Shown here: positions 49,545-56,213 of the stretch, piece after piece
How the letters are laid out: each line of letters opens with the position of its first letter
How positions within the stretch are numbered: the first letter of the stretch is position 1
Assembly (NCBI GenBank): GCA_003963245.1
Contig: RXJX01000002.1
Coordinates: 62,001-126,000 of the forward strand
Source of the DNA: Neisseriaceae bacterium
GTDB lineage: Bacteria; Pseudomonadota; Gammaproteobacteria; Burkholderiales; UBA11063
Reading direction: 5' to 3'
Length of the DNA stretch: 64,000 nucleotides
Program-made: the position numbers and the translations under genes
Notes under the pieces: generated by a model
The model's input: the letters and a program-made list of their open reading frames with translations, nothing else
What the model was told of the DNA's origin: nothing
Databases searched by the model: none

Positions 49545-50429
49545 CTATAAAATATACTCACCATGAATCACAGGCAATGGATCAGGAATATTGTCTGCGC
49601 CAATTTCTTGTAATAAATTTATTTCAATATTTCTGGTGATACTTGAAATTGGTACGCCTGAGGGTTGATGTTCAAATGGATTCATTAAATTTAGACCATT
49701 TAAATTGATTGTATTAAACACAAATCCCATAACCCAACCAAGGATTATTGCTGCAGCACCAACACTATTGGTTGCCATAGTAATTAAAGCAATAAATAAC
49801 CAGATAAATAGCTTAGTAAAGAAAAGATAGTTAATTGGAAATACCGTATTATTAATACGCTCTGATTTACCCATTGCATCACAAAGATTCTCAATTAGAC
49901 GGTTCAGAATCGTAAACTCAAAATCAGTAATTTGCTGTTTTGCTCTTAGATCCTTAATCTCTTGCGCTTGAATACTTAATAGTCCATTTGGAATATGTGA
50001 TATAAATTTAAGCTTTTCAATATCATCTGATGTAATGTATTGCAAATGATTTTCATCTTGCTTGTATTTACGAAGTGACGCTGTCAGAGCATAAAGAAAA
50101 CCGATATGCCGGCGAACAATTCTTTTTGCCGCGTGATTATCTGAAGTATAAGCGACTAGATTTCTAGCCAGTGATCTTGAATCATTAACAATACCACCCC
50201 AAATCATCCGAGCTTCCCACCAGCGATTATAAGCCTGATTATTGTTAAAACCGATAAAGAAGGCAATTGCTGTACCCATTAGCGCCGGAAAAGCGATTGG
50301 TAGCTTAAAAGACAATAGCCAATAAGTATCCAATAAGTAGACTAGACCACAGAAACCAATCATTAATAAGTCGATTTTCCAAGTTATTTTTAATATTCTA
50401 AATAGACTTAAATTTTTTCCAATTAACAT
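49545..50429 (-). CDS. bestrophin-family ion channel
   Basis: A 294-residue membrane protein of the bestrophin (UPF0187) family. The N-terminal helices are followed by the hallmark IAFFIGFNNNQAYNRWWEARMIWGGIVNDSRSLAR, and the C-terminal part carries NPFEHQPSGVPISSITRNIEINLLQE. Bacterial bestrophins are pentameric channels; eukaryotic members conduct chloride and bicarbonate. It lies 80 nt downstream of a beta-carbonic anhydrase gene on the same strand, with a strong hairpin between, which makes bicarbonate a reasonable cargo. That is inference. ATG start. Confidence 0.9.
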   Translation of the reverse strand: MLIGKNLSLFRILKITWKIDLLMIGFCGLVYLLDTYWLLSFKLPIAFPALMGTAIAFFIGFNNNQAYNRWWEARMIWGGIVNDSRSLARNLVAYTSDNHAAKRIVRRHIGFLYALTASLRKYKQDENHLQYITSDDIEKLKFISHIPNGLLSIQAQEIKDLRAKQQITDFEFTILNRLIENLCDAMGKSERINNTVFPINYLFFTKLFIWLFIALITMATNSVGAAAIILGWVMGFVFNTINLNGLNLMNPFEHQPSGVPISSITRNIEINLLQEIGADNIPDPLPVIHGEYIL

Positions 50430-50509: not shown

Positions 50510-51169
50510 TTATGCAAAGAAGCTTTTTACAAATTCATGATTAGCTAATTTAACAGGATCTGTTTCCCCGTTTAGATTAACTACCGATATTTTGCCATGA
50601 CCTTCTCCACGTGAGTTATCAATATCAAGCACCATACCAATAATTGCCAATGATTTATTATTACGTAAATCATGAAAGTCTTTAATTGCTAGCTCGACTT
50701 GTTGATTTACATTATTAATTACCGCATCACGCCATTGGACAGTCTCACTGCATGTACTATTTATATCAGATTTTTTAATTGATAGTGCCAGATGATCAAT
50801 CTCACGAATAATGCTTGAATGTAAACCGCTATAGTCACCCATTGAAGCTTTAACTGCACCGCACCCTGTATGCCCTAAGAATATCAGCAATGGAGTATTT
50901 AGTACCCTTACCCCATATTCAATACAACCTTGATTAAGGATATACTGATTACCAATATTTCTCACTATAAAGAAATTATTTTCAGGATTAAAGGTAAATG
51001 AAGTACTATGCGCTCTAGAATCACAACACATCACTAAAGTACAAGCCGGAGTTTGACTTGCAGCAAATGTTTTTATTTCATGTTCTTTAGCTTCGGTATA
51101 AGAACTATTAGTTTCTTTAATTGATTGTAACAAATGAATCACATCATCATTTTTTAGAATTAATTCCAT
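50510..51169 (-). CDS. beta-class carbonic anhydrase
   Basis: A 219-residue zinc enzyme that interconverts CO2 and bicarbonate. The zinc ligands are Cys48 (CCDSR, with the Asp50/Arg52 dyad), His100 and Cys103 (GHTGCGAV), the full beta-class set. The length is standard. It is preceded by AGGAG and by a promoter whose operator is shared with the ABC export genes at 55.7 kb. It is followed by the bestrophin gene, so hydration of CO2 and transport of bicarbonate or chloride are likely linked. No signal peptide, so cytoplasmic. Confidence 0.96.
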   Translation of the reverse strand: MELILKNDDVIHLLQSIKETNSSYTEAKEHEIKTFAASQTPACTLVMCCDSRAHSTSFTFNPENNFFIVRNIGNQYILNQGCIEYGVRVLNTPLLIFLGHTGCGAVKASMGDYSGLHSSIIREIDHLALSIKKSDINSTCSETVQWRDAVINNVNQQVELAIKDFHDLRNNKSLAIIGMVLDIDNSRGEGHGKISVVNLNGETDPVKLANHEFVKSFFA

Positions 51170-51213: not shown

Positions 51214-51252
51214 ATCTTATCATCAAATTAGTTGATAGTTCAACTATTATGT
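51214..51252 (-). promoter_or_regulatory. promoter with MarR-type operator upstream of carbonic anhydrase
   Basis: On the minus strand the -35 box TTGAAC (51243-51238) and -10 box TAAGAT (51219-51214) are 18 nt apart. An inverted repeat, ATCAAATTAGTTGA - TAGT - TCAACTATTATGT (51222-51252), covers the -35 and spacer. Its core TAGTTGA-N4-TCAACTA is the same as in the operator at 55655-55690, and 23 of 30 bases from -35 to -10 agree between the two promoters. Confidence 0.75.
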
Positions 51253-51282
51253 ACCGATATTCTTAGGGGGATGAATTAATCT

Positions 51283-52719
51283 CTAATTAAATTCTGGGTA
51301 CGCTTTTACGATACTGATATTATTTCCGGTTAAGAAATTATATTCTATTAAAGCTTGGTAATTATTATTGATAACATTGATATAATCCAAATAAGCATTA
51401 ATTGCATTATCTTCGCGTAGGTTTAACATAAACAAATTGCTATCACCATTATTAATCCGTTTATTCTCTGCACTTAACAAATCTTGTGCTAATTGATTAG
51501 ATGATTTAGACATATCTACTTGGTTTGCTGTGGCAGAGATGGAATAACGTAATGTTTCTATCTGCGATTTTAGCTGCTCCAGCAAAAGCTGTCTATCATT
51601 TAAAAGCTTACGATAGCTTGCATCAGTCTCATCACTCATCCCCTTACCATAGCTTCGGTCTAAAGGCAAAGAAAACTGCAGCTTACCTACCATCTCCTGC
51701 TGATTTAATTGAAAATAGTATGATGTCGCAGTATCTGAATTATTCTGGTTATATTGCAGTGCTAAATTAAGTTTTGGTAATAGGTAGTTACCAGCTAATT
51801 TCTGCTGATTAATTATTTGTTGAAGCTGCGTTTGAATAATTTTAAACTCGGGACGATTTTGTACCGCTTCATTTACCTCTTTTACAATAGGCATATCAGG
51901 AAGTTTATTTACTTTAGGTAAGTTATGCGGTAAGACATTCTGACTTGGCACAATTGTGTTACATTGATTATCGCGATAATATAATGATAAATATTGAGAC
52001 GCCTTGTTAAAATAATCTTGAGAAGACATTACTTTGACACGCCGTTTCAACACGTTATTGTAATTCTCTTTAACTGCTATTTCTGCCAAATCACCACTCT
52101 TCAATCTCTTTTCCATTGCAGCCTGACGAGTTTCAGCAAGCTTTAATAATCTTTCATATGATGTTAATTCAGCCCCTGCCATAATCCACGCTAGATAAGC
52201 TTTCATTGCCTCAGTCTTTACCAGAAGCTTGGAGAGTTCAATCTCATAATCTGACTTTTCTTTATCAAGAAGCGAATTATAAACATTAAGACGCTCTTCA
52301 TCCATTGTAAATCCACTTAATAGGTTCATCTTTAGTCCGACAAATTGACGTCCCAAAGTTGATGTAATTTGAGCAGAATCATATTGTGGAGTATAACCGC
52401 CAGAAATATCATATCCAGCATAAGCTGAAACCGGAGAGCCAAAAAAACGTTTTTCCAAGGCAATTTTTTGGTAGGTAGTGTTATAAGTACTACCTTGACG
52501 CTGAAGTGAGTCAGTATCCAAACGGGTATCAAAAGGTGCTTCACTTTTCTTAGCTTTAGCACTATTTAGTTCCTGCTGTATAACCGCATTCAAAACTTTA
52601 GGATAGCAACTATTTATGGAACTCTCAATTCTAGACGCTTTTAGTTCATAAGCATTTGCTACTGACATTAATGTAGATATGCATAAAAATATTTTTTTTA
52701 TATGCATATTACTTATCAT
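51283..52719 (-). CDS. TolC-family outer-membrane efflux/secretion channel
   Basis: An outer-membrane factor of 478 residues from the ATG at 52719. GGAGG lies 5 nt upstream of this ATG, and a signal peptide (HIKKIFLCISTLMSVANA) follows; longer in-frame starts reach far into the hlyD-like gene and are rejected. The body is built of two similar halves of long helices with short beta stretches (for example LVKTEAMKAYLAWIMAGAEL, and QNRPEFKIIQTQLQQIINQQ), the pattern of TolC-type proteins. It would provide the exit duct for the ABC/HlyD pair encoded upstream. It overlaps the hlyD-like gene by 11 nt. Confidence 0.82.
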   Translation of the reverse strand: MISNMHIKKIFLCISTLMSVANAYELKASRIESSINSCYPKVLNAVIQQELNSAKAKKSEAPFDTRLDTDSLQRQGSTYNTTYQKIALEKRFFGSPVSAYAGYDISGGYTPQYDSAQITSTLGRQFVGLKMNLLSGFTMDEERLNVYNSLLDKEKSDYEIELSKLLVKTEAMKAYLAWIMAGAELTSYERLLKLAETRQAAMEKRLKSGDLAEIAVKENYNNVLKRRVKVMSSQDYFNKASQYLSLYYRDNQCNTIVPSQNVLPHNLPKVNKLPDMPIVKEVNEAVQNRPEFKIIQTQLQQIINQQKLAGNYLLPKLNLALQYNQNNSDTATSYYFQLNQQEMVGKLQFSLPLDRSYGKGMSDETDASYRKLLNDRQLLLEQLKSQIETLRYSISATANQVDMSKSSNQLAQDLLSAENKRINNGDSNLFMLNLREDNAINAYLDYINVINNNYQALIEYNFLTGNNISIVKAYPEFN

Positions 52720-53824
52720 ATTTACCTCCATCTTTCTTTTTGTCATAGTCATCGTTAAATATAGAACTACTATTGAGTGTAGCATTGTTATTCTTATTAT
52801 TAATTGCAATTGGAAACCCATTCAGTTGGCGCCATAATTCATAACCTAGCAGAACTTTGTTTAACTGAATATAAGCTTGTACCTGAGCACCCATTCTTAA
52901 AAAGTTCTTTGATGGCCAAGAAGGTTCTTTTGCATCAGGTTCTATCAGAACTCGAAACATACCATTTGCGCCTGATGCATAATCTACAACTTTAACTACG
53001 CCACCAAAAGTACCAATTGAAACAGATGGCCAACCGCTAAATTGAATTGAAGGCCATCCATCAAATACTAAGCGAACCTTGCGACCAGGTGATACTAATG
53101 GAACATCATTTCCACTAATATAGATTTCTACTGCTATATTGTCTGTGGCAGGTAAGAATGTGGCTAATACATCGCCTGATTTTACAACTTTACTTCCTGA
53201 ACTTGCGAGTGTATTAATCACAATACCGTCTCGATCCGCTAAAATTAACTGGCTAGACTGACGAGATAAAGAAGACTGTGCTTTAATTAATTGCGATTTA
53301 TAATATTGTTGATCTGCAAGCGACTTCTGATAATTAATTTGCGCCAACTCAAACTCTCGTTTAGAGGTAAGCCCGTTCTTATAAAGGTTTTGTTGTCGAT
53401 TAAGATTACTTAGCGCAAGCTTTGTTGCCTCAGCAGTAGAGTTAAGGCGCTCTTGCAATGCATCAACTTCAGAACTTAAGCGACTTAATAAGAAGGGATC
53501 AACATCAACTATTTCTGCAATCTTTTCACCTTTTTTAACATGACTGCCATCCCTAACAAACCACTTATCTACACGCCCACCAACTGTAGAAACAATTTGC
53601 TGTACCCGATCTTCCGGATGCAACGCAGTAATTTGCCCACTACCAGTAGAAGTTTGAACCCACGGCACAAACATTATTCCTACAAAAGTAAGAAATAAAA
53701 TTAGGATCAAAACTCCTATCCGAGGAAAAAACCTAGAAACTAAAATACCATCAATATTATTAAATGCCCTAATATCGTCTTGCTTATACATTGCATACTG
53801 TTTATCAAAATCAAAACCCATCAT
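52709..53824 (-). CDS. HlyD-family membrane fusion (periplasmic adaptor) protein
   Basis: A 371-residue adaptor: short cytoplasmic N-terminus, one transmembrane helix (about 35-55), a lipoyl/barrel-sandwich half motif (VGGRVDKWFVRDGSHVKKGEKIAEI), a helical hairpin with heptad character (about 110-185), the second half motif (LADRDGIVINTLASSGSKVVKSGDVLATF), and a beta-barrel domain. This is the standard layout linking an inner-membrane pump to TolC. A second ATG at 53821 is an equal start candidate (AGGTG upstream). It sits 5 nt downstream of the ABC gene, so the three genes form one export complex. Confidence 0.92.
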   Translation of the reverse strand: MMGFDFDKQYAMYKQDDIRAFNNIDGILVSRFFPRIGVLILILFLTFVGIMFVPWVQTSTGSGQITALHPEDRVQQIVSTVGGRVDKWFVRDGSHVKKGEKIAEIVDVDPFLLSRLSSEVDALQERLNSTAEATKLALSNLNRQQNLYKNGLTSKREFELAQINYQKSLADQQYYKSQLIKAQSSLSRQSSQLILADRDGIVINTLASSGSKVVKSGDVLATFLPATDNIAVEIYISGNDVPLVSPGRKVRLVFDGWPSIQFSGWPSVSIGTFGGVVKVVDYASGANGMFRVLIEPDAKEPSWPSKNFLRMGAQVQAYIQLNKVLLGYELWRQLNGFPIAINNKNNNATLNSSSIFNDDYDKKKDGGKYDK

Positions 53825-53829
53825 TTCAC

Positions 53830-55527
53830 CTAAGATAAATAGCGTTTAATAAGGATGCGAAGTTCACTAATATTATCAGTTACAAATGCGCCTGAATCTT
53901 TAACCAATAGAATAAAATTATCATAACTAATATGATTATCTTCATTTCCTGAAAAGCAAATAACTGTAGTAGACGTTTCGCTGGACAAATAATTTAAAAT
54001 ATTTTGCTGAATTTGCTTATTTATACGATCAAAAATTTCAGTAATGATAATCATCGGCGATTCAGTCAAGATTGCCTTAGCTATTTTTAATTGAATAATA
54101 TGATGCTCCTGCAATGGAAAACCATTCCCAATCAATCGAGTGTCCAATTTATTCTCTAGCGAATACACTACACTATATAAATTAACTAATTTTAGTATAT
54201 TATTGATATTACCCTGCATTAAATCAGAAACACCAAACTCGAGAAATTCACGAATAGTACAATCAAACATGTTCACATCATCAATCAAGGTAATTTGACT
54301 GCGCAAATAATGTTGATCAAAATCGGATATTTGAATGTCATTAAAAGTAATATTTCCAGAATCTGGATGAATAAGGTTAGTTATTAATTTAATCAAGATT
54401 GATTTGCTAACTTGATCTGTTGATAATAATAGATTATTCGTACTTTGCTCAATAGCAATATTGAATTTGTGCTGAACACCAAAATAATCTTTATACATAA
54501 CATTATCAAGTTTTAGAAGTAGCGATGGCTTATCACGACTAATTGTATTAACATGATTTATATTCGTCACCTTACCTATTTTTTCATTTTCAATTACTAA
54601 TAAATGCTCCATTTCGTCTGCAGATGCGATCAGTTCATAGTATTTATCATAATAAATACTGAGTTTTGATACACCATACAATGAAGTTGTATATAAAATT
54701 TCTGCCGCGACTAATTGCCCCAAACTAAGCTGTGACTGAATTACTAAAATTGATCCTATGCTTAAAAGTGCAATTGTCACAATTACATACAATATGCTTA
54801 GGATAGTTATTTGTGCAAAAGTTACACTCCAATATCTTTTACGTGTTTCAATATAATCATTAACTAATCTATACCCTTTACTAACAGCATAATCTTTATT
54901 CGTACCAGATTTGAAAAATGTATTCATTCTGAAAACATCGTCAATCCAAGCAAAAACAGCAAATTTTGCCTCAGAACGAGAAATCGCCCTAGAAATCGCT
55001 TTTTTTGAAAAAAATGCCCATGTAATCCAAATGACTACAGAGATTATTAAATTCAAGATAAGAAAATATGGATGATAGAAGCTGGATAAAATAAAGCTCA
55101 CCACAATACTTAAAGCTATAAGCAATCCTTCAATGATCAACTCTGATGCATTTCTTTGAATATTAAATATTTCAAAATAACGACTGCTTAAATCGCTGGT
55201 ATTATGGGAGTGAAAACTTTCATAATTGCTATAGATTGATTTCAATAATATATCAGAAGACATCCGGACAAAAGAATTACGTTTATAAATCTCAATTAGA
55301 AATTTCTGGAGCACGCTAAGCACAGTTGCAAAACTAATCAAAAATAGTAAAACAGCACTCAGAACAACTACAGGTTGAATCAATGCAGTATATATTACAG
55401 AGGTAATTAACACTTGTATAGAAAGGGGTAACGCTAGATTGAGTAAGGCAACAATTAAGCCATAAACGGCAATTAAGCCAAAGAATTTTTTATCACAAAA
55501 GACTAAATAGTTTAAAATTTCACGCAT
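53830..55527 (-). CDS. ABC exporter-like protein with a degenerate ATPase domain
   Basis: A 565-residue half-transporter of the type I secretion/exporter layout: six hydrophobic helices (about 15-290) and a C-terminal domain aligned to an ABC ATPase (about 330-565). The fold markers are there (SGNITFNDIQISDFDQHYLRSQITLID), but the catalytic motifs are ruined. Walker A reads STDQVSKS (369-376; glycines lost, Lys375 kept), the Q-loop Gln is Asp, the signature LSGGQ is LQEHH (472-476), Walker B is IIITE (493-497, Asp to Thr) and the H-loop histidine is Gly527. The reading frame is intact, so this looks like functional divergence rather than decay. ATP hydrolysis by a homodimer is not expected. 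It leads the ABC-hlyD-tolC operon and is divergent from marR. Confidence 0.85.
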   Translation of the reverse strand: MREILNYLVFCDKKFFGLIAVYGLIVALLNLALPLSIQVLITSVIYTALIQPVVVLSAVLLFLISFATVLSVLQKFLIEIYKRNSFVRMSSDILLKSIYSNYESFHSHNTSDLSSRYFEIFNIQRNASELIIEGLLIALSIVVSFILSSFYHPYFLILNLIISVVIWITWAFFSKKAISRAISRSEAKFAVFAWIDDVFRMNTFFKSGTNKDYAVSKGYRLVNDYIETRKRYWSVTFAQITILSILYVIVTIALLSIGSILVIQSQLSLGQLVAAEILYTTSLYGVSKLSIYYDKYYELIASADEMEHLLVIENEKIGKVTNINHVNTISRDKPSLLLKLDNVMYKDYFGVQHKFNIAIEQSTNNLLLSTDQVSKSILIKLITNLIHPDSGNITFNDIQISDFDQHYLRSQITLIDDVNMFDCTIREFLEFGVSDLMQGNINNILKLVNLYSVVYSLENKLDTRLIGNGFPLQEHHIIQLKIAKAILTESPMIIITEIFDRINKQIQQNILNYLSSETSTTVICFSGNEDNHISYDNFILLVKDSGAFVTDNISELRILIKRYLS

Positions 55528-55648
55528 AGTTTACTTACTGTAAAAATTGTTTTTATTATCTAAGGAAGAAACCTACTGTCATACTCAGTCGAATTATATT
55601 GCCGAATCGAAACTCAGCAACAATGCTTTTTATTCAAAAAGAATCGCT

Positions 55649-55690
55649 ATGTTAACATCAAAATAGTTGAATAATCAACTATTTTGATGT
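55649..55690 (-). promoter_or_regulatory. promoter and 36-bp MarR-type operator upstream of the ABC-HlyD-TolC operon
   Basis: A perfect inverted repeat with 16-bp arms, ACATCAAAATAGTTGA (55655-55670) and TCAACTATTTTGATGT (55675-55690), with centre ATAA. On the minus strand it covers the -35 TTGATT (55678-55673) and the whole 18-nt spacer up to the -10 TAACAT (55654-55649). A bound repressor would block the promoter. A close copy lies before the carbonic anhydrase gene. Confidence 0.82.
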
Positions 55691-55717
55691 CCGCTATTAG
55701 TTACCTCAATGTAGCTG

Positions 55718-55726
55718 TGGTATAAT
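55718..55726 (+). promoter_or_regulatory. extended -10 promoter of marR
   Basis: TGGTATAAT gives a TGn extension and a consensus -10; the transcript start should be near 55733, about 50 nt before the ATG. The 36-bp operator lies roughly 45-80 nt upstream of that start, so autoregulation is possible but weaker than control of the divergent operon. Confidence 0.6.
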
Positions 55727-55784: not shown

Positions 55785-56213
55785 ATGTTATTACAAAGCA
55801 GCATCTTCAGAGAAATAGACAATCTATCCAGACATATTAATGGAATCTATGAAAAAATATTCAAAAAATATGGCTTGCAGCGTGGGCAATTTGTATTTAT
55901 AACACGGATAGTGGAAAATCAGAATATCAATTTGAAGCAGTTGGCACGAAATGTCCGAGTAGATAAAACCACAGTAACCAAAGCCATTCAGAAATTAGAG
56001 GACTCTGGTTACATCATCAAACAGACTGATCATATTGATAACCGTGTGATTCATTTATTTCCTACCGAAAAATGTATCCACATCTATAATTGCATTATTC
56101 AAGAAAAAAATCAGATCTTAGGTAACTTGATTAATAAATTTACGCCAGAAGAATTTGAATTTTATATCAAAATGACTATTAGCATGAATACGCACCTAGA
56201 TAAAATTCAGTAG
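55785..56213 (+). CDS. MarR-family transcriptional regulator
   Basis: A 142-residue winged HTH regulator. The DNA-binding core reads LKQLARNVRVDKTTVTKAIQ KLEDSGYI in two adjoining segments, followed by the wing with the conserved D-x-R (HIDNRVIHLFPTEK), and helical ends that make the dimer. MarR proteins usually repress a divergent export operon and let go when a phenolic or other small molecule binds. The perfect inverted repeat in front of it, and a near copy at 51222-51252, are its likely operators. Targets would then be ABC-hlyD-tolC and carbonic anhydrase-bestrophin. Confidence 0.92.
   Translation: MLLQSSIFREIDNLSRHINGIYEKIFKKYGLQRGQFVFITRIVENQNINLKQLARNVRVDKTTVTKAIQKLEDSGYIIKQTDHIDNRVIHLFPTEKCIHIYNCIIQEKNQILGNLINKFTPEEFEFYIKMTISMNTHLDKIQ

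Follow-up and report, generated by a model that had tools for sequence, protein, structure and literature searches.

The window, i.e., the whole stretch of 64,000 nucleotides from a Neisseriaceae bacterium analysed here, carries a minus-strand cluster that reads ABC-HlyD-TolC, then a palindromic site, then carbonic anhydrase (CA) and bestrophin, with a divergent marR gene on the plus strand. TolC is followed directly, on the same strand, by CA-bestrophin, and the CA site is thus placed inside one co-directional cluster. The closest relatives used for comparison form one genus of 23 genomes, counting the window's own (G000); among them, G017 corresponds to Aquella oligotrophica P08, a Neisseriaceae member from tap water (PMC6612550), and G020 is its sister genome. 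The features of the locus are as follows.

49545..50429, minus strand: bestrophin of 294 aa (Pfam Bestrophin_2, 4.4e-46)
50510..51169, minus strand: beta-carbonic anhydrase of 219 aa (Pfam Pro_CA, 1e-20), with the zinc-site motifs CxDSR (CCDSR) and HxxC (HTGC)
51214..51243, minus strand: predicted CA-bestrophin promoter TTGAAC-18-TAAGAT, its -35 within operator 1
51229..51246, no strand: putative operator 1, core TAGTTGA-N4-TCAACTA, between tolC and the CA gene, kept before CA in G014, G002 and G013
51283..52821, minus strand: TolC-type outer membrane factor (OEP, domain search), which probably starts further inside the ORF than the automatically assigned position
52709..53824, minus strand: HlyD-type periplasmic adaptor of 371 aa (domain search)
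53830..55527, minus strand: ABC-exporter-like membrane protein of 565 aa with a degenerate nucleotide-binding domain (domain, motif and fold searches)
55649..55678, minus strand: predicted promoter of the exporter operon, TTGATT-18-TAACAT, a copy of the CA promoter with its -35 within operator 2
55655..55690, no strand: putative operator 2, with perfect 16-bp arms ACATCAAAATAGTTGA-ATAA-TCAACTATTTTGATGT and its core at 55664-55681, between the ABC gene and marR
55716..55726, plus strand: predicted extended -10 of marR, TGTGGTATAAT, also found in G014
55785..56213, plus strand: MarR-family regulator of 142 aa (Pfam MarR, 5.8e-12)

The window MarR scores 45.8 bits against PF01047 (cut-off 24.6), which identifies a winged-helix MarR domain, and the bestrophin reaches 158 bits with Bestrophin_2 (cut-off 27). 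The carbonic anhydrase combines the Pro_CA domain with the CxDxR and HxxC motifs of the beta class. In the window and in G014, marR is followed by thrABC, which was considered as a regulon member because threonine is a substrate of TsaC; it was set aside, since a gap of 326 bp without operator lies between them. The genome's own tsaC is found at another locus (G000:C40).

The ABC subunit has the fold of an exporter, with PDB profile and Foldseek matches to PCAT1, TM287/288 and HlyB; the AlphaFold model, with a moderate pLDDT of 63, served for the fold class only. Its ABC_tran domain remains below the Pfam cut-off, and the Walker A motif, the signature motif and the catalytic Walker B glutamate are all absent in the window protein and in every orthologue with an aligned nucleotide-binding domain (L084, L086, L087, L088, L089 and L090), while relatives in Flammeovirga keep the ATPase motifs only in part. 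Judged by its motifs, it does not resemble an active ABC exporter subunit: it looks unable to hydrolyse ATP, and the exporter may depend on a separate ATPase or draw its energy from elsewhere. As in HlyB/PCAT-type exporters (PMC8277102), the exporter fold, the adaptor and the outer membrane factor are encoded in one operon, but the window exporter has neither the ATPase motifs nor an N-terminal C39 domain. The locus also offers a first entry point to an exporter family in which the fold is kept and the ATPase motifs are lost, with HlyD and TolC partners. Note that the ABC gene of G020 (L085 8787-10468, G020:C50) consists of two overlapping ORFs that differ in frame, which reflects a frameshift or an assembly error.

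The original prediction placed the same inverted repeat before both operons, and its core was indeed found exactly at 51229-51246 and 55664-55681. The proposed scan of the genome with the site as a motif returned only these two exact matches in 2.82 Mb (pattern search); about 0.03 would be expected from base composition, and a chance palindrome was rejected on that ground. The extended arms claimed for both copies hold at the exporter, where the 16-bp arms are perfect, but not at the CA copy, where the 7-bp core is perfect and the extended arms pair at about 10 of 15 positions. As also proposed, marR adjoins the perfect copy and starts about 100 bp past it. Four sites with one mismatch occur in the genome, all inside open reading frames (the start of one frame is uncertain), and a wider regulon in the own genome was rejected accordingly. 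In addition, a second, distant MarR gene (G000:C20:85906-86326, 22% identity) has a related palindrome with two mismatches, TAGTTTAAATTTGAACTA, about 40 bp upstream, which is perhaps its own operator.

Each operator overlaps a predicted promoter in the way first described: on the minus strand, both contain a -35 box followed by an 18-nt spacer and by TAAGAT or TAACAT, and the two promoters are identical at 23 of 30 bases from -35 through -10. This geometry extends to the relatives. At 12 of the 13 primary sites scored, which were picked by gene orientation, the left operator arm contains the TTG of a -35 and a TA...T -10 follows at 17-18 nt, an arrangement that arises by chance at 4% of TTG[AC] positions. 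It is absent from the marR1 sites of G017 and G020 and, in the window, G014 and G002, from the side of the site that faces marR. Direct autorepression of marR in the window appears uncertain, since the gene has its own predicted extended -10, which is kept in G014.

The distribution of the operator among the relatives follows that of the regulator. A site with at most two mismatches was found at these promoters in 8 of the 9 genomes with this MarR and in none of the 7 genomes that have CA, exporter or dab genes and no MarR of this clade (Fisher p=0.0007); the ninth MarR genome, G001, has a site with three mismatches. When only CA is considered, the site precedes the gene in 4/4 genomes with the MarR and in 0/4 without it (p=0.014). 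These p values are a rough guide only, given the relatedness of the genomes and the draft state of several. In the alignment, the recognition region DKTT.T.A...L is common to the set of MarR proteins, and in the MarR tree, the clade linked to CA or tsaC (98/99) stands apart from the DAB-linked MarRs. That the operator belongs to this MarR is a strong inference from these comparisons, as it is present with the MarR, absent without it, and moves with marR to new positions. It could be argued that a different regulator recognises the palindrome, or that it acts as a terminator or RNA hairpin, and that the neighbouring MarR is unrelated; the similar palindrome upstream of the second MarR gene speaks in favour of this. 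However, genomes without this MarR do not have the operator at these promoters, and where marR has changed place the operator has moved with it. The gap between tolC and CA contains no terminator-like site, for which reason a terminator or hairpin was rejected as the identity of operator 1, and the palindrome overlaps the -35. We regard this rival explanation as very improbable.

The gene contexts of the MarR and its site vary among the relatives. G014 has thr genes about 95% identical to those of the window; its order is bestrophin, CA, site, marR, and the exporter is absent; in G002 and G013, it is CA, site, marR with no exporter in between. In G007, the site is followed by co-directional marR, tsaC and exporter genes, and in G009, it has the exporter on one side and marR-DabB-DabA on the other. 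G017 and G020 have sites before marR2-DabB-DabA, before the exporter and before marR1; the Sua5 gene of G017 reads away from this triple site, and the gene layout of G020 is alike. In G001, the site precedes marR-DabBA, and in both G001 and G009, tandem operator copies flank the -10. Altogether, the site stands ahead of the exporter, either directly or leading a marR-tsaC-exporter run, in four genomes, and in G017 and G020 the exporter and a bicarbonate module are again both under the operator, the module being there the unrelated DAB pump. The pump is identified in the relatives by DabA (PF10070, 663-686 bits) beside a DabB with Proton_antipo_M. TsaC or Sua5 is encoded next to or near marR or the exporter in five genomes (G007, G013, G002, G017 and G020), with tsaC after marR in two relatives besides the Sua5-bearing Aquella pair; these proteins carry the Sua5_yciO_yrdC domain, together with Sua5_C in the long form (L090, L094, L084, L085 and L093). 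A DUF6671 protein is encoded after marR1 in G017 (L084 13102-13938) and in G020 (L085 13619-14455), in the latter before tsaC.

Two observations on the exporter count against the link: in G009 it has no site upstream, and its orthologues in G012, G015 and G005 have no MarR, no operator and no CA or DAB neighbour. Exporter neighbours in Flammeovirga and Sphingobacterium gave no match to the window marR, CA, bestrophin or Dab queries. Elsewhere in the order, this MarR was beside none of 20 sampled DAB loci, and control of DAB by this MarR in the rest of the order was rejected. In G017 and G020, a 139-aa ORF heads a co-directional gene run roughly 20 kb from the MarR cluster, and about 54 bp ahead of it is a further conserved palindrome (L176 2775-2792 and L177 2727-2744); this run is possibly a further regulon member in Aquella.

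Comparison of the promoters themselves informs how the exporter came under this operator. The 30 nt after the window exporter operator agree at 22, 23 and 20 of 30 positions with the CA promoters of G000, G014 and G002, respectively, a level of 20/30 reached by none of 50,000 random stretches, as against only 10-11 of 30 for the exporter promoters of G017 and G020. By sequence, the window exporter sits behind a copied CA promoter, which explains the near-identity of the two window promoters. Co-regulation in the window could then be an accident, the exporter cassette having landed behind a duplicated CA promoter with no functional link, which would also fit the absence of the cassette from the close relative G014. 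We nevertheless consider such an accident unlikely, since in G017 and G020 the exporter combines this operator with another promoter, and in G007 and G009 it also adjoins this MarR, a repetition that argues against a single event. Indeed, the different promoter under the same operator makes it appear that the exporter was brought under this control by more than one route.

A close known counterpart is MexR of Pseudomonas aeruginosa, with its GTTGA-N5-TCAAC site beside the efflux operon mexAB-oprM (PMC9892617, PMC6018408). Both systems have a divergent marR beside a tripartite pump operon, and palindromic GTTGA half-sites that overlap promoters. However, the window spacer is 4 bp instead of 5 bp, and the site is thus not of the MexR type; the two MexR sites lie in one intergenic region, unlike the window arrangement; the window pump is ABC-like and not RND; the bicarbonate genes share the operator; and the window MarR resembles MexR only remotely (profile match 1lnw, 7e-9). 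Given this resemblance, it is quite possible that the MarR controls both operons in answer to a xenobiotic, a phenolic or an oxidant, as MexR and EmrR do. The bicarbonate genes would then be passengers, or would help to keep the pH steady during that stress. Compounds of this kind are the usual signals for MarR proteins that control tripartite pumps, MexR has the same GTTGA half-site (PMC9892617), and the regulon would include an exporter. In contrast, G014, G013 and G001 have the MarR and the site with bicarbonate genes and no adjoining exporter, and two unrelated bicarbonate modules together with TsaC/Sua5 recur beside the MarR.

The regulon suggests a response to inorganic-carbon shortage, because CA (with bestrophin) and DabBA alternate beside the regulator and TsaC/Sua5 is nearby. 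Relatives carry DabB-DabA, as known from DAB pumps (DabA PF10070 and DabB; PMC13144422), directly after this marR, whereas a search of the window genome for DabA found none, and CA and bestrophin occupy the corresponding place. TsaC/YRDC consumes CO2/bicarbonate, with a high Km of 31 mM in the human mitochondrial pathway (PMC5951830). The presence of tsaC/sua5 in or beside the regulon of five relatives recalls this CO2-sensitive t6A synthesis, although that system is one of human mitochondria, for which no transcriptional control was shown.

We therefore favour, as the likely reading of these sequence comparisons, that one MarR represses the exporter and CA-bestrophin operons through the same operator and is released by a signal of inorganic-carbon shortage. 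A MarR dimer would bind TAGTTGA-N4-TCAACTA and cover the -35 box of both promoters, and the bound protein would repress the exporter operon (ABC-like, HlyD and TolC) as well as the CA-bestrophin operon. A signal tied to inorganic-carbon shortage would release it, both operons would be transcribed together, CA and bestrophin would restore intracellular bicarbonate, and the exporter would remove or secrete a compound. In relatives, the CO2 pump DabBA and Sua5 or TsaC would take the place of CA under the same repressor and operator. In the window lineage, the exporter would have gained this control by sitting behind the CA promoter copy. That one MarR probably controls a CO2/bicarbonate pair and an exporter, as the original prediction held, gains comparative support from an operator that tracks the MarR and from contexts that recur. 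A more far-reaching proposal, which we hold only tentatively, is that this MarR lineage is a dedicated sensor of bicarbonate shortage and jointly controls exchangeable supply modules (CA-bestrophin or DabBA), the first step of tRNA t6A synthesis, which depends on bicarbonate (TsaC/Sua5), and an exporter whose ATPase looks dead.

In the open-access literature, we found no description that links MarR regulators to carbonic anhydrase-bestrophin or DAB, in agreement with the original remark that such a CA-bestrophin/exporter link had not been seen described. As far as found, it is the set of joined genes that is new; control by a MarR repressor whose palindromic operator covers the -35 is of a known kind. 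To our knowledge, how heterotrophic bacteria sense and answer a shortage of CO2 or bicarbonate is little understood. If true, the proposed regulon would be a heterotroph's counterpart to the CO2-responsive regulators of autotrophs, and the question becomes testable in the cultured and sequenced Aquella oligotrophica, because this compact repressor and its well-defined operator recur next to two unrelated systems of bicarbonate supply and next to TsaC/Sua5. A single small family of repressors appears to pair bicarbonate supply with a three-part exporter in freshwater bacteria of the Aquella type, and the pairing is seen again in related genomes.
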